From Polyangiaceae bacterium (GTDB taxonomy: Bacteria; Myxococcota_A; Polyangia; Polyangiales; Polyangiaceae): DNA of 52,536 nucleotides. The translations under genes were made by a program, and so were the position numbers. Location of the stretch: the NCBI GenBank assembly GCA_947475525.1, contig CANJMI010000026.1, positions 1 through 52,536 on the forward strand. Reading direction: 5' to 3'. The notes under the pieces are model-generated. The model was given only the letters and a program-made list of their open reading frames with translations, did no database searches and was not told where the DNA came from. Of the stretch, positions 7,708 through 42,778 are shown one piece after another; the first letter of the stretch is position 1; each line of letters starts with the position of its first letter.

Positions 7708-7915
7708 GCTGCGCGAGGTTCCAACGATCGACGGAGTCCGCGTCTCGTTCCAGGATCTATGGGAGTATTGCGAGATCGTTCACGTTACGTCGGGCCTCGA
7801 CATCGTGATACCGAGCCTCGACGACCTGATCGCGACCAAGCGCTTCGCGGCGCGGCCCAAGGACGCCGAGGACATCCGGATGCTCGAGGTGCTACGCTCC
7901 ACACGTGGCACCTAG
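7703..7915 (+). pseudogene. C-terminal fragment of a nucleotidyltransferase-like gene
   Basis: The frame directly after the membrane protein encodes about 70 residues beginning near VELREVPTIDG and including LDDLIATKRFAARPKDAEDI. That last motif is typical of the C-terminal part of short nucleotidyltransferase-fold proteins of the AbiEii/DUF6036 kind, where a Lys-Arg pair and a PKDxEDI box end the domain. The N-terminal half with the catalytic GS motif is missing: upstream in this frame there is only the tail of the preceding membrane protein read out of phase. I interpret it as a 5'-truncated relic. Its stop overlaps the start of the next small gene by 11 bp, as in an original operon. Confidence 0.5.
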
Positions 7916-8144
7916 GGTAATCTCCCCGGCGTCGCACGGGGAGCGCGCAAGGCTACGCGCGATCGCGGAGCGACGCCTGACGGCGGCAGAGTTCAACGCG
8001 TACGTCGACGCACCGATGAGCGACGACGAACGCGAGGCCATCCTCGAAAACATCGCCTGGTTCACGCGCCGCTATCCGACGGCCGGAGAGCGCCTCGCAT
8101 GGTGCCGTCGCGTGATGACAGAGGGCGTGTTGCCACGCAGCTGA
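7905..8144 (+). CDS. Small conserved-looking protein, partner of the truncated nucleotidyltransferase
   Basis: A 79-residue soluble protein with a GTG start at 7905 that lies inside the end of the upstream nucleotidyltransferase fragment. It is mostly helical and acidic, with the segment LTAAEFNAYVDAPMSDDEREAI cut across its middle, followed by WFTRRYPTAGERLAWCRR. Small helical proteins of this kind commonly sit beside nucleotidyltransferase-fold genes in myxobacteria and may act as partner or antitoxin, but I infer that only from position. If the neighbour is dead, this gene may be an orphan survivor. Confidence 0.55.
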   Translation: MAPRVISPASHGERARLRAIAERRLTAAEFNAYVDAPMSDDEREAILENIAWFTRRYPTAGERLAWCRRVMTEGVLPRS

Positions 8145-8248
8145 GGCGCGCCTTCATGGCCGCGGGCGGCGGCTACGCGAGCGACAGACGAGCCGGCAAC
8201 GGACGAGTCCCCCTGCTCGACGGCCCACCGACGACCTCGTGCGACCCG

Positions 8249-8788
8249 TCACGTCACCGTAAAGCTGAGCTCCGCCGTAAGCGGAGCCACCGCAGCGTCG
8301 GTCGTGACGTTGAGGCTGCCCGTCGCCGCGCTCTGATTGCCGGCCATGGAATCGATCACCTTGACACCAATCGTGCAGGTTTGGTTCGGACCGAGCGACT
8401 TCCCGGTGCACGTGTTCGACGACTCGGAGAACTTCCCTTGAGGCCCCGAGGAGGGCTGCGTGAATTCGACCTTCGTTACCTTCACCGTGCCGCCGCCGGC
8501 GTTGGTCACGGTGAAGAGCGTCTCGTCGCTGGGCTGGCCCGGCAGGATGATCGTCCACGATGCCTTGGTTGGCGCGAGCGTCGCCATGGCCGCCATGCCG
8601 CTGCTCGACGAAGCGCTGGACGCCCCACCGCTGCCACCGCTTCCACCGCCGCCGGATGCCACGGAACTGGACGACTGGACCGTCGATGCCGCCGAGGCGT
8701 CCGTATCATTGTCCCCGCCGCAGGCAACCGCCGCGAAGAAACACAAGGCCATGCTGGGAACAATTGCGAGAGGTGAAACTCGAACCAT
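8249..8788 (-). CDS. Lipoprotein with an Ig-like (ASPM/Hydin-type) domain
   Basis: About 179 residues. The ATG at 8788 gives a signal peptide ending in the lipobox AVACG; the frame is open further upstream, but that part has no signal features and overlaps repeat debris. After the lipidated Cys comes a Ser/Gly linker, then from about residue 70 a beta-rich domain with FTVTNAGGGTVKVTKVEF and an NTCTGKSLGPNQTCTIGV segment. This is the style of choice-of-anchor-D / ASPM-SPD-2-Hydin Ig-like domains, which act as extracellular structural or adhesion modules. Two cysteines in the last segment probably form a disulfide. The role is unknown. Confidence 0.75.
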   Translation of the reverse strand: MVRVSPLAIVPSMALCFFAAVACGGDNDTDASAASTVQSSSSVASGGGGSGGSGGASSASSSSGMAAMATLAPTKASWTIILPGQPSDETLFTVTNAGGGTVKVTKVEFTQPSSGPQGKFSESSNTCTGKSLGPNQTCTIGVKVIDSMAGNQSAATGSLNVTTDAAVAPLTAELSFTVT

Positions 8789-8852
8789 CGATGGATCGTA
8801 CAAATTCGGTCCGAGGTCCGCAACGCCTGCGGCAGGGGGAGCTGCTCCGACG

Positions 8853-9023
8853 TGGGGCTGGAAGGCCGATGGCGACCCTCGCGGCGGTCCAAAAACCGGC
8901 GCCATTCAGGGACGAACGGCCACGCTCGACGCGGAGGGCACGACGCTCACGCTCAGCGGCGAGACCGGCTGCGGCGCGGACACGTTGGTCACCCTGACCG
9001 TGACCTCCTACGTCTGCGAGTGA
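8853..9023 (+). pseudogene. Fused remnant of a LamG gene end and a Cys-containing C-terminal domain (repeat copy A)
   Basis: Bases 8853-8876 are identical to 12122-12145, inside the LamG lipoprotein gene, and encode the same GWKADGD motif. After an 18-bp junction the sequence resumes as a near copy of 12442-12570 and encodes TGAIQGRTATL through to a shared C-terminus TSYVCE. About 296 bp present in the other copy are therefore missing here, and the two parts are joined in one reading frame. There is no credible start or signal peptide upstream. This looks like an internally deleted duplicate. Confidence 0.6.
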
Positions 9024-9131
9024 GCGGATCTTGCAGGGGAAGCGCGTTGCGCCCTCAAGGGCCCCGCCACAACGTGCACGAGCTCAATTTCGGCGATCGC
9101 GCGTGCGGGTTGGACCCACCCACTCGTCCCA
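8895..9131. repeat. Direct repeat copy A (237 bp), pair with 12442-12678
   Basis: Aligned by eye with no gaps against 12442-12678; about 14 differences in 237 bp (roughly 94 percent identity). The segment contains the 3' end of a plus-strand reading frame (stop at 9021-9023) and the 3' end of a minus-strand Tudor-knot gene (stop at 9084-9086). Differences are clustered: 3 in the 129 coding bases before the plus-strand stop, but 8 within the next 23-bp spacer. Confidence 0.9.
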
Positions 9132-9749
9132 ACTCGCCGCGTAACCGTCGTAGTGGACGAGCCAAAGCTTGCCCAAGGTCTTCACGACCGTCGCGGGGTA
9201 GAAGTCTTGGTTCCACTCGACCTCCACCTTCGCCCCAACCTTGCGCATCACGGCCGCGCTCGCGTCAGTACCTTGCTCGGCAACTGCGCGATTATCGAGA
9301 ATCCACTCGTCCAACGCCGGAGCCGCCCCCGGGTACGTGACGCGCATGAAGTCACCCTCGACGGCCGTAACCTTCGCGTCGTAGGGGGCGCCATCCCGCT
9401 CCACCACGAGCGTGTGTCCGACCGGATAGCTCCGATACCGAAGCGGCTCGAGGTCCTTCGAGGCCACCGTCCGCTCCCCCACGCTAGCGTAATCGAGGGT
9501 GCGGAGCACCACCTCTCCAGGCCCCTTGCCCGTGCCGACTACGCGCCCGACGACTCTCGGCTGGCCGGTGAGCGTCACGTAGTCGCCGAGCCGTGGCGCG
9601 TCGGTCCGGCGAGCAGGCGCTGCGTGAACGGATGCAAATGCCGCGGGAACCTTCGCGAGCGCCGCATCGAGCGCGCGCATCCCAATGCCGGTGCTCGCCG
9701 CTTCCGCGACGACAGCCACGGGCGCCTCGGCCTCGAGAACACAAAACAC
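9084..9749 (-). CDS. Secreted protein with a C-terminal Tudor-knot/Agenet-like domain
   Basis: About 221 residues from the GTG at 9749. The last 50 residues contain VEVEWNQDFYPATVVKTLG and then a YDGYAASWDEWV segment, the pattern of Tudor-knot, Agenet or chromo-barrel-like folds, and the middle region (about 60-165) holds at least one similar SH3-like repeat. Such domains occur in myxobacterial secreted proteins; the ligand is unknown. The N-terminus is odd: the same frame continues upstream of 9749 as IVRFFLLIAA, a good signal-peptide core, but without ATG, GTG or TTG before a stop at 9828-9830. The original start may have been lost where an RCC1 fragment abuts. The 3' end lies within the repeat. 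Confidence 0.65.
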   Translation of the reverse strand: MFCVLEAEAPVAVVAEAASTGIGMRALDAALAKVPAAFASVHAAPARRTDAPRLGDYVTLTGQPRVVGRVVGTGKGPGEVVLRTLDYASVGERTVASKDLEPLRYRSYPVGHTLVVERDGAPYDAKVTAVEGDFMRVTYPGAAPALDEWILDNRAVAEQGTDASAAVMRKVGAKVEVEWNQDFYPATVVKTLGKLWLVHYDGYAASWDEWVGPTRTRDRRN

Positions 9750-9776
9750 CGCGGCGATGAGCAGAAAGAAACGGAC

Positions 9777-9938
9777 GATGCGCTCGGCTTCGTCAATCTC
9801 GGAAACTTCAAGAAAGCGGTATCGCTTTCAGTAGGCGGCAAACACGCCTGCGCCATCCTCGATGACAACACCGTGAAGTGCTGGGGCGCGAACAATCAGG
9901 GGCAGCTTGGTCTCGGCGACACGAATTCGCGAGGGGAC
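9777..9938 (+). pseudogene. Single orphan RCC1-type repeat
   Basis: Fifty-odd codons in one frame encode VSLSVGGKHACAILDDNTV, then KCWGANNQGQLGLGDTNSRGD. This is one textbook RCC1 repeat of the kind found many times in tandem in myxobacterial lipoproteins with seven-bladed propellers. Here only one blade remains, with no signal peptide or further blades on either side. It abuts the 5' end of the Tudor-knot gene on the other strand and overlaps that gene's possible signal-peptide region. It must be a recombination remnant. Confidence 0.7.
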
Positions 9939-9973
9939 GGTCGACGCTGCAGGAAAGAATTCGCGCTTGGTGC

Positions 9974-11137
9974 TCAGCTCTGACACGTACAAGGGATGGG
10001 AGTGTCCGCGTTGTAGACGCGCAAGACGTTCAGCCAGGTCTTCACCTCAAGAAGATCGTTACGACACTGGTTGTTGTCGTTCTTCGTGATGAGCGCCCGC
10101 GCTCGCGTGCAGCTCGTCTGTGCCTCGGCCTCCTTGTCCGCGCCCTTGAGGCCCATCGCGATGCCACAAATGCAACTCACGTACTTGTCGCAGAAGCTCT
10201 CCGAGGTCACGGCATCGACGAACGACTGCACCTCCAGCGCCGCGCACTGCGGCGCACCGACATCGGGCCCAAGGATGCTCGTGATTTTGTCGGCCTGGCA
10301 CCTGTTGCGCGCAAGCAGACCAACGCCAAGCTTCTTGTCGTTCGCGATCTCGACGCCGTAGAGCGTGCTGTCGCTTCCGAGCTTCTCGACGACCTCCTTC
10401 GTCTTCGACGGAAGGGCCGCGCTCCCCATCGCCATAAAGAGTCCGTCGGGACACGCTGCGGGAGGTGCATCCGCACATGCCGACGCTTCAGGCGCCGGAG
10501 CGCCTGAAATGCTGCCGAAGATCCAAATGTCGTCCAAGCAGAGGTCGTTGTAGGTACCCTTGTTCACCGCCACGGCCGTCAGCTTCAGCGACTTCACCGC
10601 CTTGCCAATCTTCACACGCTTGCGGCGCCCCTTGTCGGTGAAGCGGTTGAACTCGACCGTCTCCTCACCGCCGTCCCAGGTCACTTTCATCGTCTGGAAG
10701 ACATTGTTTTTGTCCCACGCGTCGAACAGCCGGTTCGACCGCTTCGTGAACCAACCTCCGCTAACGTCGACGTACTCGACGAACGTCCCCGGCACGAAAG
10801 TCGCTTCGACCCACTCACCCGTTCCGTCGCCGGGCGAGTCCTCGGTCCACGAGGTGGTCGGCCAGCCATCGAACGCGTAGCGCGCGCCGTGGCACGCCTG
10901 CTCCGACGAGGCCTTCACGTCCGCAACCGCGCTTTTCGTAATTTCGGTAACGGTCCGCACCTCGGCAGCCGGTGCGGTTGGCACAGCACCCGCGCTCGCG
11001 GCAGGTTTTGATGTTCCCGAGCTGGAGCTCACCGATGCGGAGCCAGCGCTCGATGCGGTCGGCTTCGATTTGCAACCAACCGGAAGGACGAGACCGAGAA
11101 CCGAGAGGGCGGCGACGAGCGGACGAGCGTTGGGCAT
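9974..11137 (-). CDS. Lipoprotein with a discoidin-like (NADase-type glycan-binding) domain
   Basis: A 387-residue lipoprotein. The ATG at 11137 starts a signal peptide ending in LPVGC; the open frame continues far upstream but is antisense to the LamG gene and has no signal there. A Ser/Ala/Pro linker covers about residues 27-70. Residues about 72-205 contain ACHGARYAFDGWPTTSWTED and LKLTAVAVNKGTYNDLCLDD, matching the NADase-type glycan-binding (F5/8 discoidin-like) domain that binds sugars. The C-terminal 170 residues are a separate Cys-rich helical domain, including CDKYVSCICG and a final CTCQ, that I do not recognise. The product probably sits on the cell surface. Confidence 0.75.
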   Translation of the reverse strand: MPNARPLVAALSVLGLVLPVGCKSKPTASSAGSASVSSSSGTSKPAASAGAVPTAPAAEVRTVTEITKSAVADVKASSEQACHGARYAFDGWPTTSWTEDSPGDGTGEWVEATFVPGTFVEYVDVSGGWFTKRSNRLFDAWDKNNVFQTMKVTWDGGEETVEFNRFTDKGRRKRVKIGKAVKSLKLTAVAVNKGTYNDLCLDDIWIFGSISGAPAPEASACADAPPAACPDGLFMAMGSAALPSKTKEVVEKLGSDSTLYGVEIANDKKLGVGLLARNRCQADKITSILGPDVGAPQCAALEVQSFVDAVTSESFCDKYVSCICGIAMGLKGADKEAEAQTSCTRARALITKNDNNQCRNDLLEVKTWLNVLRVYNADTPIPCTCQS

Positions 11138-11359
11138 TTTCGAACCTACGGTGAGAAAAAAACTGCGAGAAAGCGACCCATAGCATGAGTTGACCCGCAT
11201 CGGCCCGTACCACAGGCTCGTTGGCGTCAAGTTTAATTCGTCACCACGGGCCGCCGACCTTGGTTGACGCCCCCTCCCATCAACGTTTCTCGCTCCCATT
11301 GAGGTCGCCCCATACGTTTCCCTTCGCCTGTCTCCCTTCGAGCCCTCACGCTCGCCCCC

Positions 11360-12274
11360 GTGGCCGCCATGCTGTCGCTGGCAACTCACGCGTGCGTTCC
11401 GACGCTCGTCATCGATGCCAAGTCGGACACGAGCGCTGGCTCCACGATGATCGGCAGCGGCGCGACCGGCAGCACCGGCGCGGGCGGCATGACCGGTGCA
11501 GGAGGCAGCGGCAACGCGTGTGGGGATGTTCTGACGGACGACGCCAACTGCGGCGTTTGCGGAAACGCGTGCGCGTTCAACGCGTCCTGCGTGGCCGGAA
11601 CGTGCGCTGCGCTTCCCTGCCATGCGCTCACGTTCGACGGAAAGGACGACTACGTGACCGTGCCGGCGAGCGCGGACTTCGCGTACGGCGCGGAATTCAC
11701 CGTGGAGTGGTGGATGAGGGCGAACGCCGGCGTCGACTATCCCCGCATTCTCTCCCACGAAGCAACGATGGGCGCGCCGAACACCCTCTACACGTCGTGG
11801 TCCATCGACGGGGTAAACAAGCTCGGACAGGTTCGCTTCCAGACCGCCAACAACATGCTCACTCAAGCGTCGACCACGCTTGTCGCACTCGGCGAGTGGG
11901 CCCACGTCGCGGCCGTGATCACAGGCGGAAATAAAATCACGCTCTTCGTGAACGGCGCAAAGAGCGATACGAGGCCGGCCGCCTTTAGCGGCGACACCAC
12001 CCAGGTCGCGCTCGGGATCGGTGCCCAGTTGAAATACCTCACGGATTACCCTTACGGAGGCGGCATCGGGCCGCTGCGGCTGAGCAAGGTCGCGCGCTAC
12101 GCGGGGGCGTTCAGTCCAACTTGGGGCTGGAAGGCCGATGGCGACACGCTCGCGGTGTGGAACATGTTCGAGGGAGCCGGCACGACGCTCCTCGACCAGT
12201 CGGCAGGCAAGCATGACGGCACCCTCGTCGGTCCGGGTTGGGAGACGCTTGCCGTGTGTCCCGGCGGGTCGTGA
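11360..12274 (+). CDS. LamG/concanavalin A-like lectin lipoprotein
   Basis: A 304-residue protein from a GTG at 11360. The N-terminus MAAMLSLATHACVP has a lipobox-like THAC, but the hydrophobic core is short; in the same frame upstream there are 18 more codons that would complete a signal peptide, with only an ATA as possible start. A Gly/Thr/Ser linker and a Cys-rich segment (CGVCGNACAFNASC) precede a LamG-type jelly roll at about 85-290, with FDGKDDYVTV, EWWMRANAG, GEWAHVAAVI and FVNGAKSD as typical strand motifs. It should bind carbohydrate at the cell surface. Its 3' end shares sequence with repeat copy A, and its stop overlaps the next small frame as GTGA. Confidence 0.75.
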   Translation: MAAMLSLATHACVPTLVIDAKSDTSAGSTMIGSGATGSTGAGGMTGAGGSGNACGDVLTDDANCGVCGNACAFNASCVAGTCAALPCHALTFDGKDDYVTVPASADFAYGAEFTVEWWMRANAGVDYPRILSHEATMGAPNTLYTSWSIDGVNKLGQVRFQTANNMLTQASTTLVALGEWAHVAAVITGGNKITLFVNGAKSDTRPAAFSGDTTQVALGIGAQLKYLTDYPYGGGIGPLRLSKVARYAGAFSPTWGWKADGDTLAVWNMFEGAGTTLLDQSAGKHDGTLVGPGWETLAVCPGGS

Positions 12275-12570
12275 AGCCTTCGTGGAAAAACAAGGGAACG
12301 AAGAGTGCGCAGGTGATGACCGGAAGCTACGCAAGCACGGAACTGACGAAGGTGGTCTGCGATGCGAACACACTGGGAGCTGAGGTTCGTGTGGCGAACG
12401 CAAACGGCGTCGAGCTGAAGCCCCTCGCGAACATCAAGGAGACCGGCGCCATTCAGGGACGAACGGCCACGCTCGACGCGGAGGGCACGACGCTCACCCT
12501 CAGCGGCGAGACCGGCTGCGGCGCTGACACGTTGGTCACCATGACCGTGACCTCCTACGTCTGCGAGTGA
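12271..12570 (+). CDS. Short Cys-containing protein or surviving C-terminal domain (repeat copy B)
   Basis: An open frame of 99 residues beginning with a GTG that overlaps the LamG stop codon (GTGA), so it could be translationally coupled. The product contains SYASTELTKVVCDANTL, then a beta-rich tail with GETGCGAD and a final VTSYVCE; I do not recognise it. It lacks a signal peptide, so it may be the C-terminal domain of a lost lipoprotein. The last 129 bases are almost identical to copy A at 8895-9023, with two of the three differences silent, which suggests the coding part stayed under selection after duplication. Confidence 0.4.
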   Translation: MKPSWKNKGTKSAQVMTGSYASTELTKVVCDANTLGAEVRVANANGVELKPLANIKETGAIQGRTATLDAEGTTLTLSGETGCGADTLVTMTVTSYVCE

Positions 12571-12678
12571 GCAACTCTCGCACGCGGAACGCGTTGCGCC
12601 CTCAGGGGCCCCGCCACAACGTGCACGAGCTCCATTTCGGCGATCGCGCGTGCGGGTTGGACCCACCCACTCATCCCA
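12442..12678. repeat. Direct repeat copy B (237 bp), pair with 8895-9131
   Basis: Partner of 8895-9131 at a constant offset of 3547 bp. Besides the plus-strand reading-frame end it holds, on the minus strand at 12631-12678, the last codons of a Tudor-knot gene (ending WVGPTRTRDRRN) whose stop codon has mutated from TGA to GGA and whose body is absent. So copy B lost the minus-strand gene, while copy A kept it. Confidence 0.9.
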
Positions 12679-12784
12679 CGCCGCGGCCCACCGACGACCT
12701 CGCGGGCCGTGGCCCCACGCACAACGTGGCCGGCCTCGAACGAGGCGGCATGCTACGAGCCTCGCCCCTCGGCGCTAAAACCTC

Positions 12785-14344
12785 ATGAAGACCCCCATCC
12801 GAAACCTCGTGCTCATTTTGGGCGACCAACTCGACGAACGTGGCGCCGCGCTGACGGACTTCGATCCGCAGCGCGATGCGATCTGGATGGCCGAGGTCTG
12901 CGAAGAGTCCACCCATGTCCGGTCGTCCAAACAAAGAACCACCGTCTTTCTGAGCGCGATGCGTCACTTTGCCGAGCTCCTTCGCGGCAAAGGTTGGCAC
13001 GTCGCCTACAGCACGCTCGACGACCCAAACAACTCCGGCACGCTCGCGGGGGAGCTTCGGCAAGCACTCCAGCGTTTCGAGCCCACGAAGCTCGTCGTCA
13101 CGGAACCAGGTGAATGGCGCGTGCTCCAGAGCCTTCGCTCCACAGCGCGTGAGCATGAGCTTTCCCTCGAGGTTCGCGAGGACACGCATTTTTTCAGCAG
13201 CGTCAGCGACTTTCGCCGCCATGCCGCGGGCCGAAAACAACTGCGGCTCGAGTATTTTTATCGTGAGTTGCGTCAACGAACGGGCATCTTGATGAACGGA
13301 AAAACGCCCGTCGGGGACCAATGGAATTTCGACGCCGCCAACCGTGAAAGCTTCGGAAAAGCGGGACCTGGTCCGCTGCCCGCGCCAACCCGCTTCGAAC
13401 CCGATGCGACGACCCAGGAGGTGATCCGATTGGTGAACCAACGGTTCGCCGACCATCCGGGCACGGTCACAACCTTTGGCTGGCCCGTGACGCGCGCGGA
13501 AGCCCAAAAGGTGCTCGAGGAATTCATCGAACACCGGCTTCCGAACTTCGGAACCTACCAAGATGCGATGTGGGAGGGCGAGGTGTGGCTCTACCACTCG
13601 CACCTGTCGTGCGCGCTGAACCTGAAGCTCCTCAACCCAAGAGAGGTCGTCGCGGCGGCCGAGAATGCCTTCCGTCGGGGCCGAGCACCGCTCGAAGCAA
13701 CGGAGGGTTTCATCCGCCAAGTCCTCGGTTGGCGAGAGTACGTTCGCGGCATTTATTGGACCACCATGCCCGACTACGCCGGTCGCAACGAAATGAACGC
13801 GCACGCGGCGTTGCCAGCGTTTTACTGGACGGGCGAGACGGAGATGGCGTGCCTACGCGATGCCATCGCTCAAACGCTCGAGCATGGTTACGCCCATCAC
13901 ATTCAACGTCTGATGGTCACCGGGCTCTACGCGCTTTTGATGGGCGTTACGCCCCGCGAGGTGCACGAGTGGTACCTAGGTGTGTACGTCGACGCCGTCG
14001 AGTGGGTCGAACTCCCCAACACCCTTGGCATGAGCCAGTTTGCGGACGGTGGCCGCATGGCCAGCAAGCCCTACGTCGCGAGCGGCAAGTACATCGCTCG
14101 CATGAGCAACCACTGCAAGGGCTGCCGCTTCGACCCGGCGCAATCGACCGGCGAGAGCGCGTGCCCATTCACGACCTTGTATTGGGATTACTTGAACACA
14201 CACGAGACGAAGCTCGCGGCCAACCCCCGCATGGCGATGCAGCTAAAGAATCTCAAGCGGCTTTCCGACAACGATCGACGCGCCATCGCAGCCCAGGCGT
14301 CGCTGCACAGGTCGATGGTCTACGGCGTCCCTCCCACCTCGTGA
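12785..14344 (+). CDS. Iron-sulfur bacterial cryptochrome/photolyase (FeS-BCP, (6-4) photolyase-like)
   Basis: A 519-residue flavoprotein of the deoxyribodipyrimidine photolyase-related family. The Rossmann-like antenna domain starts with LVLILGDQLDE (residues 8-18). The FAD domain contains GWREYVRGIYW (315-325) and HHIQRLMV (371-378), whose histidines match the active-site pair of (6-4) photolyases. Four cysteines expected to bind the [4Fe-4S] cluster are present: Cys356, Cys444 and Cys447 (NHCKGC) and Cys460 (ACPF). By homology it uses blue light to repair UV (6-4) photoproducts, although some members act as light sensors. It lies 177 bp upstream of a CPD photolyase, so the two main UV lesions would be covered together. 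Size is normal for the family. Confidence 0.93.
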   Translation: MKTPIRNLVLILGDQLDERGAALTDFDPQRDAIWMAEVCEESTHVRSSKQRTTVFLSAMRHFAELLRGKGWHVAYSTLDDPNNSGTLAGELRQALQRFEPTKLVVTEPGEWRVLQSLRSTAREHELSLEVREDTHFFSSVSDFRRHAAGRKQLRLEYFYRELRQRTGILMNGKTPVGDQWNFDAANRESFGKAGPGPLPAPTRFEPDATTQEVIRLVNQRFADHPGTVTTFGWPVTRAEAQKVLEEFIEHRLPNFGTYQDAMWEGEVWLYHSHLSCALNLKLLNPREVVAAAENAFRRGRAPLEATEGFIRQVLGWREYVRGIYWTTMPDYAGRNEMNAHAALPAFYWTGETEMACLRDAIAQTLEHGYAHHIQRLMVTGLYALLMGVTPREVHEWYLGVYVDAVEWVELPNTLGMSQFADGGRMASKPYVASGKYIARMSNHCKGCRFDPAQSTGESACPFTTLYWDYLNTHETKLAANPRMAMQLKNLKRLSDNDRRAIAAQASLHRSMVYGVPPTS

Positions 14345-14521
14345 GCCCTCGCCACGGTTGACTCGAAGCGGCAGGCCGCCCGCCGTCTGGCCCCGGGTCG
14401 TGTTCTCGCCTTCAAAGAGCGCACGGTGCCGCGAGCCCATGTGCGCCTGACGTGCTACGCCCACGACGGCGCGGTTTTGCCCGCCACCGCTTATGCGGCA
14501 ACCCCGAGAGATGGAACGAGC

Positions 14522-15973
14522 ATGCGCACGATTGTCTGGTTTCGCGGGAAAGACCTCCGCATCGCCGACCACGCCCCCCTCACCGACGCGGCGCGGGCGG
14601 GAGAGGTGATCCCGCTTTTTGTCCTCGATCCTTACTTTTTTGCGAAGGACCGCGCAAAGACGCTCCCGAACCGCATTCAGTTTTTGCTCTCGTCGCTGCG
14701 CTCGCTCGAAAAAAACGTAGCCGCCAAGGGCTCGCGCCTCATCGTCGTCGAGGGGCGTGCAACCGAGGTGATTCCGCGCCTTGCCGCGCAGTGGCACGCC
14801 GATAAGGTGGTCGCGCACCGCTGGGTCGAGCCGTTCGCACGGACCCGCGACGACCGCGTGAAGGCAGCGCTACGCGTTCCGTTTGAGCTCTACGAAGGCG
14901 AGACCCTCTTGCCACCCGGGACGCTGCGCACGGGAGCGGGAAAGCCGTACGCCGTGTTTAGCCAGTTCGCCAAGAGCTTCACCAAGACCGCCATCGTCGA
15001 TGACGCGCTCCCCGCGCCGAAGAGCCTCCCCGCGCTACCGGCCGACGTGCGTGCCGACGAGGTGCCGATCCCGACGATGGAGTCGCTCGGGCTGACCGAG
15101 AACCCCGCTGTCCAGTTGGGTGGTGAACGCACAGCTCATGAGCGACTCGTCCGGTTCCTCGAGCGCGCCGCCAACGCTTATGCGAACGACCGCAACCGAA
15201 TGGACCTCGAGGGTACGAGCCGACTCTCCGCGGATCTCAAGTTCGGCACGCTGTCGCCGCGTCAGGTGTGGAACCAGGCGAAGGCAAAGGTCACCGACGA
15301 CACGTCCGCGCGCGCCTACTTAAACGAGCTGCTTTGGCGCGAGTTCGCTCACTCGACCCTTTGGGACCGACCCGAACTTTTGACCGAACCGTTTCAACCG
15401 CGTTTCAAGGCGTTTCCATGGGTGCAGGATGACGCCGCCTGGCACGCGTGGTGCGAAGGGACAACGGGCTACCCCATCATGGACGCGGCAGCCCGACAGC
15501 TTCTCGGCGCGGGGTTCGTGCACAACCGCGCGCGCATGATCGCGGCGAGCTTCCTCACCAAACACCTGCTCATCGACTACCGGCGCGGCGAAGCCCACTA
15601 CATGCGCTACCTGACGGACGGCGATTGGGCGCAGAACAACGCGGGGTGGCAGTGGTCGGCCGGCTGCGGCTGCGACGCCCAACCTTACTTCCGCATCTTC
15701 AACCCCGTGACGCAGGGCGAGACGTTCGACCCGGACGGCGAGTACGTGCGCCGTTGGGTGCCCGAGCTCGCGAAGCTCCCCGCGAAGTTCATCCACAAGC
15801 CGTGGGAAGCTCCCGCGGACGTTTTGCGCGCCGCCGGGGTGTCGCTCGGAAAAAGCTACCCACGCCCGATCGTCGACCACAAAGAGAGCCGCGAGCGCTT
15901 CCTCTCCGTCGCGAAGCAGCACTTGCAAGCGCCCGTCGAGGGCCATGATCGTCTCGAGAACCAGCCAACCTAA
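14522..15973 (+). CDS. phr: Class I CPD photolyase
   Basis: A 483-residue deoxyribodipyrimidine photolyase that splits cyclobutane pyrimidine dimers using FADH- and blue light. The N-terminal domain (IVWFRGKDLRI) should bind the antenna chromophore. The FAD domain shows GTSRLSADLKFGTLSPR (231-247), WREFAH, TGYPIMDAAARQL (315-327) and NNAGWQWSAGCG (372-383). Compared by eye with E. coli PhrB, the photoreduction triad reads Trp300, Tyr353 (in place of Trp359) and Trp376. The ATG at 14522 was chosen because MRTIVWFRG is the canonical N-terminus; the frame is open further upstream. It heads an operon with a DUF2177, an acyltransferase and a DUF1295 gene. Confidence 0.95.
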   Translation: MRTIVWFRGKDLRIADHAPLTDAARAGEVIPLFVLDPYFFAKDRAKTLPNRIQFLLSSLRSLEKNVAAKGSRLIVVEGRATEVIPRLAAQWHADKVVAHRWVEPFARTRDDRVKAALRVPFELYEGETLLPPGTLRTGAGKPYAVFSQFAKSFTKTAIVDDALPAPKSLPALPADVRADEVPIPTMESLGLTENPAVQLGGERTAHERLVRFLERAANAYANDRNRMDLEGTSRLSADLKFGTLSPRQVWNQAKAKVTDDTSARAYLNELLWREFAHSTLWDRPELLTEPFQPRFKAFPWVQDDAAWHAWCEGTTGYPIMDAAARQLLGAGFVHNRARMIAASFLTKHLLIDYRRGEAHYMRYLTDGDWAQNNAGWQWSAGCGCDAQPYFRIFNPVTQGETFDPDGEYVRRWVPELAKLPAKFIHKPWEAPADVLRAAGVSLGKSYPRPIVDHKESRERFLSVAKQHLQAPVEGHDRLENQPT

Positions 15974-15987
15974 GGCCCGCGAAAAGC

Positions 15988-16416
15988 ATGACATCCTCCG
16001 CGCAATACCCGCTCGTCGCCATCGTCCTCGCCGCGGTGACCGTCACCGTCACGATGATGGTCCTCGACCTGACGTTCCTCGGCGTCATCGCGAAGTCGTT
16101 CTACGACGTGGCGCTTGGACCACTCAAGAGGCCGACCGTGCATTGGCCAGCGGCGCTCGCGTTCTACGCCATGTACGTCGGAGCGATCACCGCCTACGGG
16201 GTAGTCGGCGCCGAGAGCCTTGGCAACGCGTTCTCGCGCGGAGCGGCGCTCGGCTTCGTGTGTTACGCGACCTACGAGTTGACGAACTGGGCCGTTCTCG
16301 CGGGCTGGCCGGCACGACTCGTCCTTGTCGATATCGTGTGGGGCGTGGTGCTGACCGGGTTCGCATCGCTCGCCGGTCGGGCGGCGCTCGAACGGGCTTC
16401 CACGGCGCTTCGATGA
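15988..16416 (+). CDS. DUF2177 family membrane protein
   Basis: A 142-residue integral membrane protein with four predicted helices (about 8-32, 50-72, 80-103 and 112-132). Family signatures are the FYAMYVGAI segment after the second loop and CYATYELTNWA, close to the FYxxYxxG and ATYDLTNxA boxes of DUF2177. The biochemical role is unknown; members are often found beside photolyase genes, DUF1295 genes and cyclopropane-fatty-acid synthases in light or singlet-oxygen regulons of proteobacteria. It starts 14 bp after the photolyase, and its stop overlaps the acyltransferase start as ATGA, so the proteins are probably made together. Confidence 0.88.
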   Translation: MTSSAQYPLVAIVLAAVTVTVTMMVLDLTFLGVIAKSFYDVALGPLKRPTVHWPAALAFYAMYVGAITAYGVVGAESLGNAFSRGAALGFVCYATYELTNWAVLAGWPARLVLVDIVWGVVLTGFASLAGRAALERASTALR

Positions 16417-17477
16417 GCAAGGCGGCGCGGGAGCCCTTCCTCCAACGCTGGGGCCGTCGGGTGCTCACCATCCCTGCGTTTTTCCTCGGCGGAACGCTCT
16501 ACCTCGCGCTGTTGCCGCTGACGCTCGCGTTCACGGCGGTGCTCGACCTGCTCCGGCCTTTTGCCGGGACCTTCTCGCGAAGTCGCGCCGTGCTCATGTT
16601 CGCGCTTTACGTCGTGTGCGAGGTCGTCGGCATCGCGGTCGCGCTCGCCATTGGCGTGGCGATGCTCGGCGGCCGCCTCGGTGGCGAGGCACGCTACGTC
16701 GCTGCGAATGCGGCGCTTCAGCGGTTTTGGACGGACGCGCTCTTTTTCGGGAGTCTCCGCATCTTCGGGATGCGCGTCGCCATCGAAGGCGATGCGCTCG
16801 CGCCGTCGGGGCCCTTGCTCTTTTTCGTTCGGCATACGAGCGTCGCCGACACCGTGCTCATCGCGGCGCTGATCGCAAACCCCGCGCGGCGCCTCCTTCT
16901 CTACGTGCTCAAGCGCGAGCTTTTGTGGGATCCGTGCCTCGATCTCGTCGGGCTCCGATTGCCGAACGTGTTCGTCGCGCGGGACGGAAAACGCGGCGAG
17001 GCAGAGATTCGTGCGGTCGCGGGGCTCGCGGCGCTCCTCACACCTTCGCGCGCGGTGTTGCTCTACCCCGAGGGAACACGCTTCTCCGAAGCCAAGCGGC
17101 TCCGCGCAGCGGCTTCCTTGCGCGAACGCGGACACGCGGAGCTCGCATCCCAGGCTGACCGCATGCGCCACGTGTTGCCTCCCAAACTCGGGGGCTCTCT
17201 CGCCCTGCTCGACGCGGCGCCGGAGGTGGACGTCGTGTTCGTCGCGCACACGGGGTTCGAGGGCGCGGCGAGCCTTGCCTCGTTCTGGGGTGGCGCTCTT
17301 GTTGGCAAGACGATCCGCGTGCGACTCGAGCGGGTCCGGGCCGCTGCGATCCCAAGCGACAACCGCGATGCGTGGCTCTTTCAGCGGTGGCTCGAGCTCG
17401 ACGCTTGGGTCGCCTCGCAGCTCGCTCTGGCCACCGGCTCGGGCGGTGCAGGCGCCGCGGAGGGACCCGTCCGATGA
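16413..17477 (+). CDS. PlsC-type 1-acylglycerol-3-phosphate acyltransferase family protein
   Basis: A 354-residue membrane acyltransferase. Two to three hydrophobic segments occur in the first 100 residues (about 20-48 and 55-85). The catalytic HX4D motif is seen in RHTSVADT, and the second block is YPEGTR, which places the phosphate of the acceptor. It is therefore likely to acylate a lysophospholipid or related glycerol lipid at the inner membrane. It is longer than typical PlsC (about 240 residues) because of the N-terminal membrane region. The start ATG at 16413 overlaps the DUF2177 stop, and its own stop overlaps the next start, both as ATGA. The context suggests membrane-lipid remodelling linked to light stress. 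Confidence 0.88.
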   Translation: MSKAAREPFLQRWGRRVLTIPAFFLGGTLYLALLPLTLAFTAVLDLLRPFAGTFSRSRAVLMFALYVVCEVVGIAVALAIGVAMLGGRLGGEARYVAANAALQRFWTDALFFGSLRIFGMRVAIEGDALAPSGPLLFFVRHTSVADTVLIAALIANPARRLLLYVLKRELLWDPCLDLVGLRLPNVFVARDGKRGEAEIRAVAGLAALLTPSRAVLLYPEGTRFSEAKRLRAAASLRERGHAELASQADRMRHVLPPKLGGSLALLDAAPEVDVVFVAHTGFEGAASLASFWGGALVGKTIRVRLERVRAAAIPSDNRDAWLFQRWLELDAWVASQLALATGSGGAGAAEGPVR

Positions 17478-18289
17478 CGTTCGAACTCGTGAGAGACAAC
17501 GCGCTCCTCTTGCTCGTGCTCGTCAGCCTGCTGTGGCTCGTCAGCGTGAAGCTCCGCGACGCGAGCATCGTCGATCCGTGGTGGTCGATCCTGTTCCTGG
17601 CGGTGAGCGCACGCACGGCCGTCGTGACGGGGTTTGGCCCCCGCAACCTCGCTCTCCTCGCGCTCGTCGCAGCGTGGGCACTGCGCCTCTGGCTCCACTT
17701 GCTCGTGCGCAGTCGCGGCAAACCGGAGGATCCGCGCTACCAAGCATTTCGCGTGCGTTTCGGTGCCGAGCGGTACTGGTGGGTGTCCTTCTTTCAGGTC
17801 TTTTTGCTTCAAGGGTTGCTGGCGCTCGTCATCTCCGCACCGCTTCAGTACGCCGCGTCACGCGCGTCGTCGGAGCCCTTTCACGCGCTCGACGCGCTCG
17901 GCCTCGTCCTCTTCGCGACGGGCTTCGTGTTCGAGGCGACGGCCGACCGGCAGTTGCAGCGTTTTCGCGACGACCCGGCGAGCCGCGGACGGGTGCTCGA
18001 CACCGGACTCTTCGCGCTGACGCGCCACCCCAATTACTTCGGCGACGCGGTTCTCTGGTGCGGTTTCGGCTGCTTCGCCTCGACATCGTTCGCGGGGGCG
18101 CTCACCTGGTTCGGTCCTGCGCTGATGACGTTTCTCCTCATGCGAGTGTCCGGCGTGACGATGCTCGACGAGCACCTCACCAAGACGCGGCCCGGCTACG
18201 CCGCGTACATCGCGCGAACCCCAGGGTTTTTCCCTCGTTGGCCGAAGAAGCGCGACGGCAACGCGGTAGAATCACGCGAGACCCTTTAG
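17474..18289 (+). CDS. DUF1295 family membrane protein (steroid 5-alpha-reductase-like)
   Basis: A 271-residue protein with about six membrane helices. Family motifs are DPWWSILFL near residue 35 and the C-terminal TRHPNYFGDAVLWCGFG, the usual NADPH- or methyl-donor-site region in the steroid 5-alpha-reductase / isoprenylcysteine methyltransferase superfamily, followed by TRPGYAAYIARTPGFFP. It may reduce or otherwise modify a lipid, but the substrate is unknown. Start overlaps the acyltransferase stop by 4 bp. It is the last gene of the photolyase operon and ends 10 bp before the convergent dehydrogenase gene. Confidence 0.9.
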   Translation: MTFELVRDNALLLLVLVSLLWLVSVKLRDASIVDPWWSILFLAVSARTAVVTGFGPRNLALLALVAAWALRLWLHLLVRSRGKPEDPRYQAFRVRFGAERYWWVSFFQVFLLQGLLALVISAPLQYAASRASSEPFHALDALGLVLFATGFVFEATADRQLQRFRDDPASRGRVLDTGLFALTRHPNYFGDAVLWCGFGCFASTSFAGALTWFGPALMTFLLMRVSGVTMLDEHLTKTRPGYAAYIARTPGFFPRWPKKRDGNAVESRETL

Positions 18290-40661: not shown

Positions 40662-42778
40662 CGGCGCCGTCGGGTTTTTCAATCCCGCTGCGGTTCGCGT
40701 TGCCGCCGCGCGCGAAGGAGGTGGTTCCAATTCTCGAGAGCCCGGGGCTTGCGGCCGCGTGTTTTGGCTTTCAACTTCAGCCCCCGACCGAGTGCATCAT
40801 CCTCGCGGTCAAAGCCACGTTTGCGCTGGTTCCGGGCGGGGTCGCCACGTGGTGTGAGGAAGCCGAGCCGCTCTCGGGAGACGAGCCGCTCTCGGACGAT
40901 GTGGTCAATCCTCCCGGAGAAGCCCACGAAGGAGGGAGCCTCGCGCGGGCGACTGACTTTGCCCCATGGAAGCCTCGCGCAGACGTCACGCTGACGGGGC
41001 ACGCGTACCCTTCCCACACGGCGCATGCTGCCCACACGGCGCAGGTATCGCACGTGGCCCTGACGTTCGGCGCCCTTCACCAGCGGGCCGCGGTGCTCGG
41101 CGATCGTGAGTGGCACGGAGAGGTTCCGACGGCGCCCGCAACCTTCGATCGAATGCCGCTCGTTTGGGAGCGCGCTTTCGGCGGCAAAGGCTTTCCGAAA
41201 AATCCGTGCGGCCGCGGTTTCCACGGTGCGATGTTGCCGAATCTCGAACAGGCTACGGGCTTGATTCGCTCCCCGAAGGACGCGCCCGAGCCCGTGTGTT
41301 TTGCGCCCGTCCCGCGGGAGTGGCAGCTTCGCGCGCACAAGCTCGGGACCTACGACGCGGCGTGGCGTGCGCAGCGATGGCCGTATTTTCCAAGGGATTT
41401 CGACTGGTCCTACATGAACGCGGCCCCGGTCCCGCTCCAGATTGACTACCCCACCGGCGCCGAGCACTTCGAGCTCGCGGGCGTCCATCCGACGCTCCCG
41501 TCGATCGTAGGCACGCTCCCCGGACTCCGCGCGCGAGCGTTTGCGCTTGGGACCGATGAGGCTGGCTCCACCTTTCGTGAGCTGCCGCTCAAGCTCGACA
41601 CGGTGAGTTTCGACGCCGATGCGCTGCGAGTCTCGCTGGTTTGGCGAGGACACCTCGAGGCGAGCCATGCCTGCGCCCCCGAAGTCTCGCGGTTTTACGT
41701 CATCCTCGAGCCCACAGCGGAGCCCACGCCAATCTCCGGCGTGTTCGCGCGCATGACCGAGGAGCTCGTCGCGCGTTATGGTCCGGGCGTCATCCTTCCG
41801 TCGAACGATCCCCCCGTCGTTCCGGCCGCGCCGCCGCCGCAACCGAAGGCACCGACTCCGCGCGTCGATCGGGCACAAGCGCTTGAGTTCATCGCCTCGC
41901 GTGAGTCTCTCGCCGGTGCCGATCTTGCTGGCTACGATCTCTCGGCGGTCGAGTTGTCGCACCGTGATCTCGCAGGAGCGAACCTCGTCGGAGCGTTGCT
42001 CGAAGGCGCGAACCTCAGCGGCGCGAACCTCAGCGGCGCGCGGCTCACGCGGGCCTATGCACCGTCGGTGAATTTGCGTGGAGCGAACCTCGCGGGAGCA
42101 AACCTCGCCGAGGCGGTGCTGACGGCGAGCGACCTCAGCTCGGCCGTGCTCGACTACGCGACGCTGGCTGAAGCCCACGCGGTCGGGGCTCGCTTCGAGG
42201 GCGCTGCGCTCGCGCATGCGAACCTCACCGACGCGGTGTTCGATGACGCGGTATTCGACCGCGCGGTGGCGAGTGGTGCGGCGTTCTCGGGCGCTTGGCT
42301 GAGGCGTGCGTCTTTTGTGGAGGCGACCCTCGAGGACGCGCAGGCTTACGAGATTGAAGCCGAAGGCGCGAGCTTCGATCGCGCGCGTATGGCGCGGCTA
42401 CGAGGTGACGGCGCGAAGTTGTCGCGTGCATCGTTCGTCGGGGCGGACGCGAGTGACGCGAGCTTCGACTCCGCGGTCCTTGCCGCGGCGCGCCTCGATG
42501 GGGTGACGCTCTCGGACGCGGTACTGGCCCACGCTGATTTTACAGGCGCCGTGCTCGATCGCGCGACGTTGAAGGGAGCGCGGCTCCGCTATGCGAACCT
42601 CGAGCGCGCCGCCTGTCGCAAAGCCAACCTGATGGAGGCGAGCCTCGAGGGCGCGAACCTCCATCAGGCGGATCTCCGAGGCGCGAACTTGTACGGCTGC
42701 AATCTGAACGGCGCGTCGCTCGACGGCACTCAACTCGAACTCGCGATTCTCGCGAACACCCTGCTCGCTCCCCACTGA
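40658..42778 (+). CDS. DUF2169 adaptor fused to a pentapeptide-repeat rod
   Basis: 706 residues. The N-terminal part (about 1-350) is a DUF2169 domain: VKATFALVPGG, WERAFGGKGFPKNPCGRGF and WPYFPRDFDWSYMNAAP are its hallmarks. A Pro-rich hinge (VVPAAPPPQPKAPTP, near 390) leads into pentapeptide repeats from about 407 to the end, such as LAGANLVGALLEGANLSGAN. DUF2169 proteins are chaperone/adaptor proteins that load cargo onto type VI spikes. The GTG start overlaps the DUF4150 stop by 4 bp. A DUF2169-pentapeptide fusion is known among type VI effectors and adaptors. No catalytic domain is visible in the repeats. Confidence 0.9.
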   Translation: MTAPSGFSIPLRFALPPRAKEVVPILESPGLAAACFGFQLQPPTECIILAVKATFALVPGGVATWCEEAEPLSGDEPLSDDVVNPPGEAHEGGSLARATDFAPWKPRADVTLTGHAYPSHTAHAAHTAQVSHVALTFGALHQRAAVLGDREWHGEVPTAPATFDRMPLVWERAFGGKGFPKNPCGRGFHGAMLPNLEQATGLIRSPKDAPEPVCFAPVPREWQLRAHKLGTYDAAWRAQRWPYFPRDFDWSYMNAAPVPLQIDYPTGAEHFELAGVHPTLPSIVGTLPGLRARAFALGTDEAGSTFRELPLKLDTVSFDADALRVSLVWRGHLEASHACAPEVSRFYVILEPTAEPTPISGVFARMTEELVARYGPGVILPSNDPPVVPAAPPPQPKAPTPRVDRAQALEFIASRESLAGADLAGYDLSAVELSHRDLAGANLVGALLEGANLSGANLSGARLTRAYAPSVNLRGANLAGANLAEAVLTASDLSSAVLDYATLAEAHAVGARFEGAALAHANLTDAVFDDAVFDRAVASGAAFSGAWLRRASFVEATLEDAQAYEIEAEGASFDRARMARLRGDGAKLSRASFVGADASDASFDSAVLAAARLDGVTLSDAVLAHADFTGAVLDRATLKGARLRYANLERAACRKANLMEASLEGANLHQADLRGANLYGCNLNGASLDGTQLELAILANTLLAPH

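Follow-up and report, generated by a model that had tools for sequence, protein, structure and literature searches.

Bacterial tandem duplications decay into partial pseudogenes, and the rearrangement of gene order through duplication followed by differing losses from the copies is a published idea. In TDRL, described mostly from mitochondrial genomes, neighboring genes are duplicated directly, the copies suffer complementary loss, and the order that results is changed, with remnants left between the surviving genes. Under the SNAP hypothesis, a duplication whose two copies then lose different genes yields a new bacterial gene order; duplication rates are given as high for segments of tens of kilobases and larger, the two opening steps, duplication and then divergence, are said to show signs in natural isolates, and further tests are called for (Brandis and Hughes, 2020; PMC7055797).

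The locus analyzed here, part of a 52,536-base stretch of a Polyangiaceae genome (hereafter the window), is ordinary in kind when set beside these systems and is partly readable. With TDRL it shares the direct duplication of neighbors, complementary copy loss, the changed order and the remnants between, but it belongs to a bacterial chromosome and its losses are incomplete. Direct duplication, deletions and frame breaks are also what decaying bacterial tandem duplications display, whereas here the part retained is where two convergent genes meet, and a 19-base repeat stands at one edge. The likeness to SNAP lies in a chromosomal duplication, differing losses per copy and a rearranged order; in that hypothesis the unit comprises tens to hundreds of genes, is held by selection and becomes fixed by the loss of different essential genes (PMC7055797), unlike the present case, in which the unit is a few genes and their duplication as whole genes is only likely.

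A sequence-only reading of this DNA had proposed a dot plot of 8200-12800 against itself. A BLAST comparison of the whole window with itself returned two pairs at E <= 1e-4. The stronger of these, which is the strongest repeat of the window, joins 8895-9141 (copy 1) to 12442-12685 (copy 2), with 230 of 247 positions identical (93%, E 7e-102), the copies being in the same orientation and 3547 bases apart. The earlier reading had placed a 237-bp repeat of about 94% identity at 8895-9131 and 12442-12678, and ungapped comparison yields 14 mismatches over this length (223 of 237 equal, 94.1%) and 18 over the 246 bases of 8895-9140 and 12442-12687. The second pair matches 8846-8884 with 12115-12155 (41 columns, 88%, E 2.5e-6) and sits immediately upstream of the long repeat in both copies, in equal order and on the same strand; its right-hand member falls within the LamG reading frame described below. 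Neither this shorter match nor the 19-base repeat had been noted before. The repeat is genuine, and chance similarity or an assembly artefact is extremely improbable as its source: the genome is a draft of 59 contigs, and one frame break discussed below could be an assembly error, but the E-value of the long match speaks against chance and 18 differences in 246 bases are unlike a wrongly duplicated read. A dispersed repeat was considered and rejected, as a query spanning 8820-9160 hit only these two places in the 5.15 Mb of its own genome (59 contigs); the same query matched 10 of 38 other genomes over stretches of at most 59 bases. Elsewhere in the window, at 42005-42040, exact 16-base words 15 bases apart form a short tandem repeat.

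The repeat holds the 3' ends of two converging genes, as had been proposed: the plus-strand frame stops on TGA at 9021-9023 in copy 1 and at 12568-12570 in copy 2, and the minus-strand gene, of the Tudor-knot type, stops at 9084 in copy 1. Next to copy 2, the plus strand carries an open frame at 11360-12274, for which a family search gives Stig1-like and Laminin_G_3 matches, followed in another frame by 12277-12570, for which (12277-12567) no Pfam or NCBIfam family scored above the cut-off and nothing of note was found among solved structures. The latter segment encodes a domain of about 97 residues, denoted R here, which also occurs as the C-terminal module of Cys-rich proteins at other loci (L041, 18317-18967; L071; L070). 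In another genome of the same family, G103, a 650-codon open frame (contig C338) comprises a Cys-rich part, LamG and the same C-terminal domain R in one protein; when this protein was compared with the window by tblastn, LamG aligned in a single frame as far as 'CP', and R aligned from 'PSWK' in a different frame. Since the two domains share a frame in G103, copy 2 has a single LamG-R gene on its plus strand, with the Stig1-like Cys-rich region and LamG as its 5' part; its frame is broken somewhere from about 12262 to 12276, which could be an assembly error given the 59-contig draft. The frame 12238-12570, described in the earlier reading as the kept plus-strand gene, is thus the 3' end of a larger, broken LamG-R gene that includes 11360-12274, and a caution applies to taking the apparent short kept gene at face value; LamG-R is present only at this copy.

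The two junctions are homologous and collinear with one LamG-R gene. Copy 1 reads from the end of LamG into the end of R in a single frame: a remnant of the LamG domain end (APTWGWKADGD; 8846-8884, 88% identical to 12115-12155) is in frame with the R tail at 8895-9023, which consists of the last 42 whole codons and the stop. From the BLAST coordinates, a net 278 bases are missing internally relative to copy 2, in agreement with the internal deletion proposed earlier, and the 5' part of LamG-R is absent as well. For the roughly 10 bases at the deletion (8885-8894), no other site in the window has 10 or more matching bases, and to the left of copy 1 we found no convincing remnant of the LamG 5' part, only short weak matches. 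The left edge of copy 1 adjoins the upstream region of a small lipoprotein-like minus-strand frame (8249-8788; an ORF whose start is our choice) with a weak choice_anch_D match of 22.3 bits (cut-off 45). The plus-strand side of copy 1 is a collapsed LamG-R remnant that ends against the Tudor-knot gene.

On the minus strand, the frame 9084-9749 at copy 1 has MBT and Tudor-knot matches above the cut-off. It is open farther upstream; of the codons ATG, GTG and TTG, the earliest in the frame is a GTG at 9749, which lies within what we read as a signal-peptide-like stretch, RIVRFFLLIAAVFCVLEAEA, extending past this codon; none of the three precedes that stretch, and the rarer start codons CTG, ATT and ATC are present upstream of 9749. 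To call the Tudor gene at copy 1 kept, as the earlier reading did, is therefore too strong, and this gene is itself doubtful. Between it and the next minus-strand gene lies a fragment of an RCC1-repeat gene (9822-9983, plus strand; family match), possibly marking an old join, and the space between the copies is further occupied by an F5/8C-like gene (9974-11137, minus strand) with NADase_transloc and NADase_discoid family matches. In copy 2 the Tudor gene is reduced, as had been claimed, to its final codons with the stop lost (12631-12685, minus strand): the tblastn match (12634-12690; about 57 bases, some 19 codons) covers residues 203-221 of 221 only, and the stop was lost through one base, TCA at 9084-9086 against TCC at 12631-12633 in plus-strand letters. 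To the right of copy 2, as far as the photolyase-like gene, there is no convincing second remnant of the Tudor, RCC1 or F5/8C genes; tblastx for residual homology outside the copies gave short weak matches only (best E 0.002).

That each copy preserved a different member of the pair is therefore accurate as a description, a full-length Tudor frame accompanying copy 1 alone and LamG-R copy 2 alone, but each of the surviving genes looks damaged. The arrangement would be explained if a unit of about 3.5 kb, comprising a surface-protein-like LamG-R gene, the converging Tudor-knot gene and the F5/8C gene, had been duplicated head to tail and complementary deletions had followed, a scenario whose chances we put at about even. 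From copy 1 the greater part of LamG-R, comprising the 5' portion and the net 278 internal bases, would have disappeared while the Tudor gene was retained; copy 2 would have retained LamG-R, which later acquired its frame break, and would have lost the Tudor gene save for the last 57 or so bases. Head-to-tail duplication with deletions gives just this outcome, a nearly whole LamG-R at the right-hand copy and a whole Tudor frame at the left-hand one. The strength and shared orientation of the repeat, the LamG-tail match that precedes it in both copies, the single frame of LamG and R in G103 and the in-frame passage from LamG tail to R tail in copy 1 also speak for it. Tandem duplications are common in bacteria, and the same orientation together with a short distance is typical of them; we rank this scenario first on account of that frequency and of the proximity and shared direction of the copies. 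The tandem nature of the duplication, the presence of both genes whole in the duplicated unit and the order of events are what we infer. Two LamG-R/Tudor convergent junctions are present, so of the earlier proposal of a duplicated gene pair that much stands; duplication of the whole pair is likely, with only about 57 Tudor bases in copy 2 to represent the second gene. The missing second Tudor, RCC1 and F5/8C remnants to the right of copy 2 weigh against tandem duplication, as does the missing LamG 5' sequence to the left of copy 1.

This small Tudor share would be accounted for if LamG-R alone had been copied to the right of F5/8C together with the last 57 or so Tudor bases, the source LamG-R having then decayed and the Tudor gene never having been duplicated. 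Such partial duplication fits about as well as duplication of the whole pair and by our count involves one event fewer, but the orientation and closeness of the copies are, on general grounds, typical of tandem duplication, and among the repeats of the window at E <= 1e-4 there is no second insertion of this kind; we regard it as possible, at a clearly lower probability. Copying may also have run in the opposite direction, with the LamG-R 3' part and the whole Tudor gene copied leftwards to 8846 and the Tudor gene deleted afterwards at copy 2. The LamG 5' part would then not have had to be lost in a step of its own, the left edge at 8846 being simply the copy boundary, but the internal deletion and the 19-base scar would still be required and there is no positive mark of this direction, which makes the scenario improbable. 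Either partial copying or copying in the opposite direction needs about as many steps as tandem duplication.

The right edge of copy 2 bears on all of these scenarios. The sequence CGGCCCACCGACGACCTCG occurs exactly, on the plus strand, at 8221-8239, in the space that separates the lipoprotein-like gene from a small gene pair whose end is near 8165, and at 12684-12702, where the second occurrence starts as the long repeat ends. With at most one mismatch it has two matches in its own 5.15-Mb genome and none in four other genomes of the genus; with at most three mismatches it has three in the window, a number reached by none of 100 dinucleotide shuffles (mean 0.13). A common oligonucleotide was rejected as an explanation: the inner 17 bases were found in 10 of 82 loci, all ten being stretches of the own genome, which has two full-length matches. 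The 19-base repeat marks a further breakpoint at the right edge of copy 2. It precedes copy 1 yet comes after copy 2 and so is not collinear with the long copies; plain tandem duplication does not yield this order, and an extra step is needed. Under tandem duplication, the scar in copy 2 would have been closed by 19 bases identical to 8221-8239. We infer that the repeat is either templated sequence of this kind, left where a deletion was repaired, or part of a permuted copy made through a circular intermediate or template switching. Under partial duplication, the right join would likewise be a 19-base templated piece or the product of a circular intermediate in which the Tudor tail had come to adjoin 8221-8239; a Tudor tail followed by sequence from the left of the source is the order expected of a circular or template-switching copy. 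In its fullest form, with LamG-R relocated by such a copy along with the Tudor tail and the 19-base piece from its far side, permuted and inserted 3.5 kb away while the source decayed, this explanation is rather unlikely.

Genomes of relatives were compared with the locus. Domain R is found in three of 183 genomes of the order, its own included (G000, G003 and G103), and a search of a genome collection with R gave one locus, on the 38,967-base MAG contig VGRJ01000037.1, presumably the same as contig C37 of G003. The R gene of G003 contains two R units and is convergent with a different open frame (L041, 17279-18160); at both R loci of G103, the next open frame that is 250 or more codons long lies on the R gene's own strand. 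The N-terminal part of the Tudor protein is present in seven of the 183 genomes, own included, and R and this part occur together only in the own genome and G003, where they are on separate contigs (C37 and C192) and the Tudor relative aligns over residues 79-169 in one comparison and 79-161 in another; the whole Tudor query matched 21 of 39 relatives, own included, mostly in the C-terminal Tudor-knot region. The F5/8C gene and the photolyase-like gene were each found in three of five genomes of the genus, own included, the F5/8C match of G001 having two internal stops. For contigs C251 of G001 and C150 of G003, similarity to the window is confined to the small gene pair around 7711-8165; contig C293 of G001, collinear with 13754-17516 (98.6%), begins inside the photolyase-like gene and stops short of copy 2. 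Among eight stretches of G001, G002 and G003 compared with the window, none spans the region, and the unduplicated ancestor that the sequence-only reading had looked to relatives for was not found in those examined, which counts against tandem duplication; contig gaps leave room for one.

Several further features of these contigs were recorded. Placement of the G003 R gene downstream of the small gene pair on C150 was rejected: the contig ends have no exact overlap longer than 10 bases, and it is the end of C184 that encodes the stretch at the C37 edge. On C184, just upstream of the R gene start, we read an IS3-type transposase-like frame (L067, 2-874). The match of G001 C293 to 13754-17516 (98.6%) is followed by a 95% match to 813-1304, two other G001 matches being 83% and 89%, a pattern that may reflect a rearrangement between strains, a recent transfer, or a contig of foreign origin in the draft genome. 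On C60 of G001 (L053), 50-base direct repeats of 94% identity (9701-9750 and 12100-12149) flank a stretch containing a broken F5/8C gene fragment, a similar-looking scar.

The R tails of the two copies are equal at 126 of 129 bases and only 69-74% alike to G003, whose F5/8C ortholog is 79% alike; given this difference between the copies and the relative, the duplication probably postdates the split from G003. At the three sites that differ, the last R unit of G003 agrees with copy 2 at two and with neither copy at one, as would be expected if copy 1 were the dead copy, three sites being few. Divergence between the copies is uneven, which also weighs against tandem duplication. The space between the converging stop codons (9024-9083) begins with a strongly diverged spacer, 9024-9046 against 12571-12593, that has 8 mismatches in 23 bases compared with 7 in 215 elsewhere, where identity is about 97% (Fisher p 9e-6, only indicative since the boundaries were set after the mismatches had been seen and 9133-9140, with three mismatches and a gap in the gapped alignment, was excluded). 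Gene conversion of the flanks or a single multi-base change is a possible cause. The idea that the shared spacer encodes a conserved RNA hairpin was rejected; the space has no notable RNA fold, and four folds were no better than shuffles (z +0.72, +0.67, +0.22, and -0.82).

The locus does nothing as a unit; duplication and decay produced it as a by-product and left an altered gene order. If the relocation of LamG-R by a circular or template-switching copy were true, a half-finished change of gene order would have been caught in the act. Compared with the first two steps of SNAP, the locus resembles a later stage, although at a much smaller scale, and it offers a readable small example of a possible change of gene order in bacteria.
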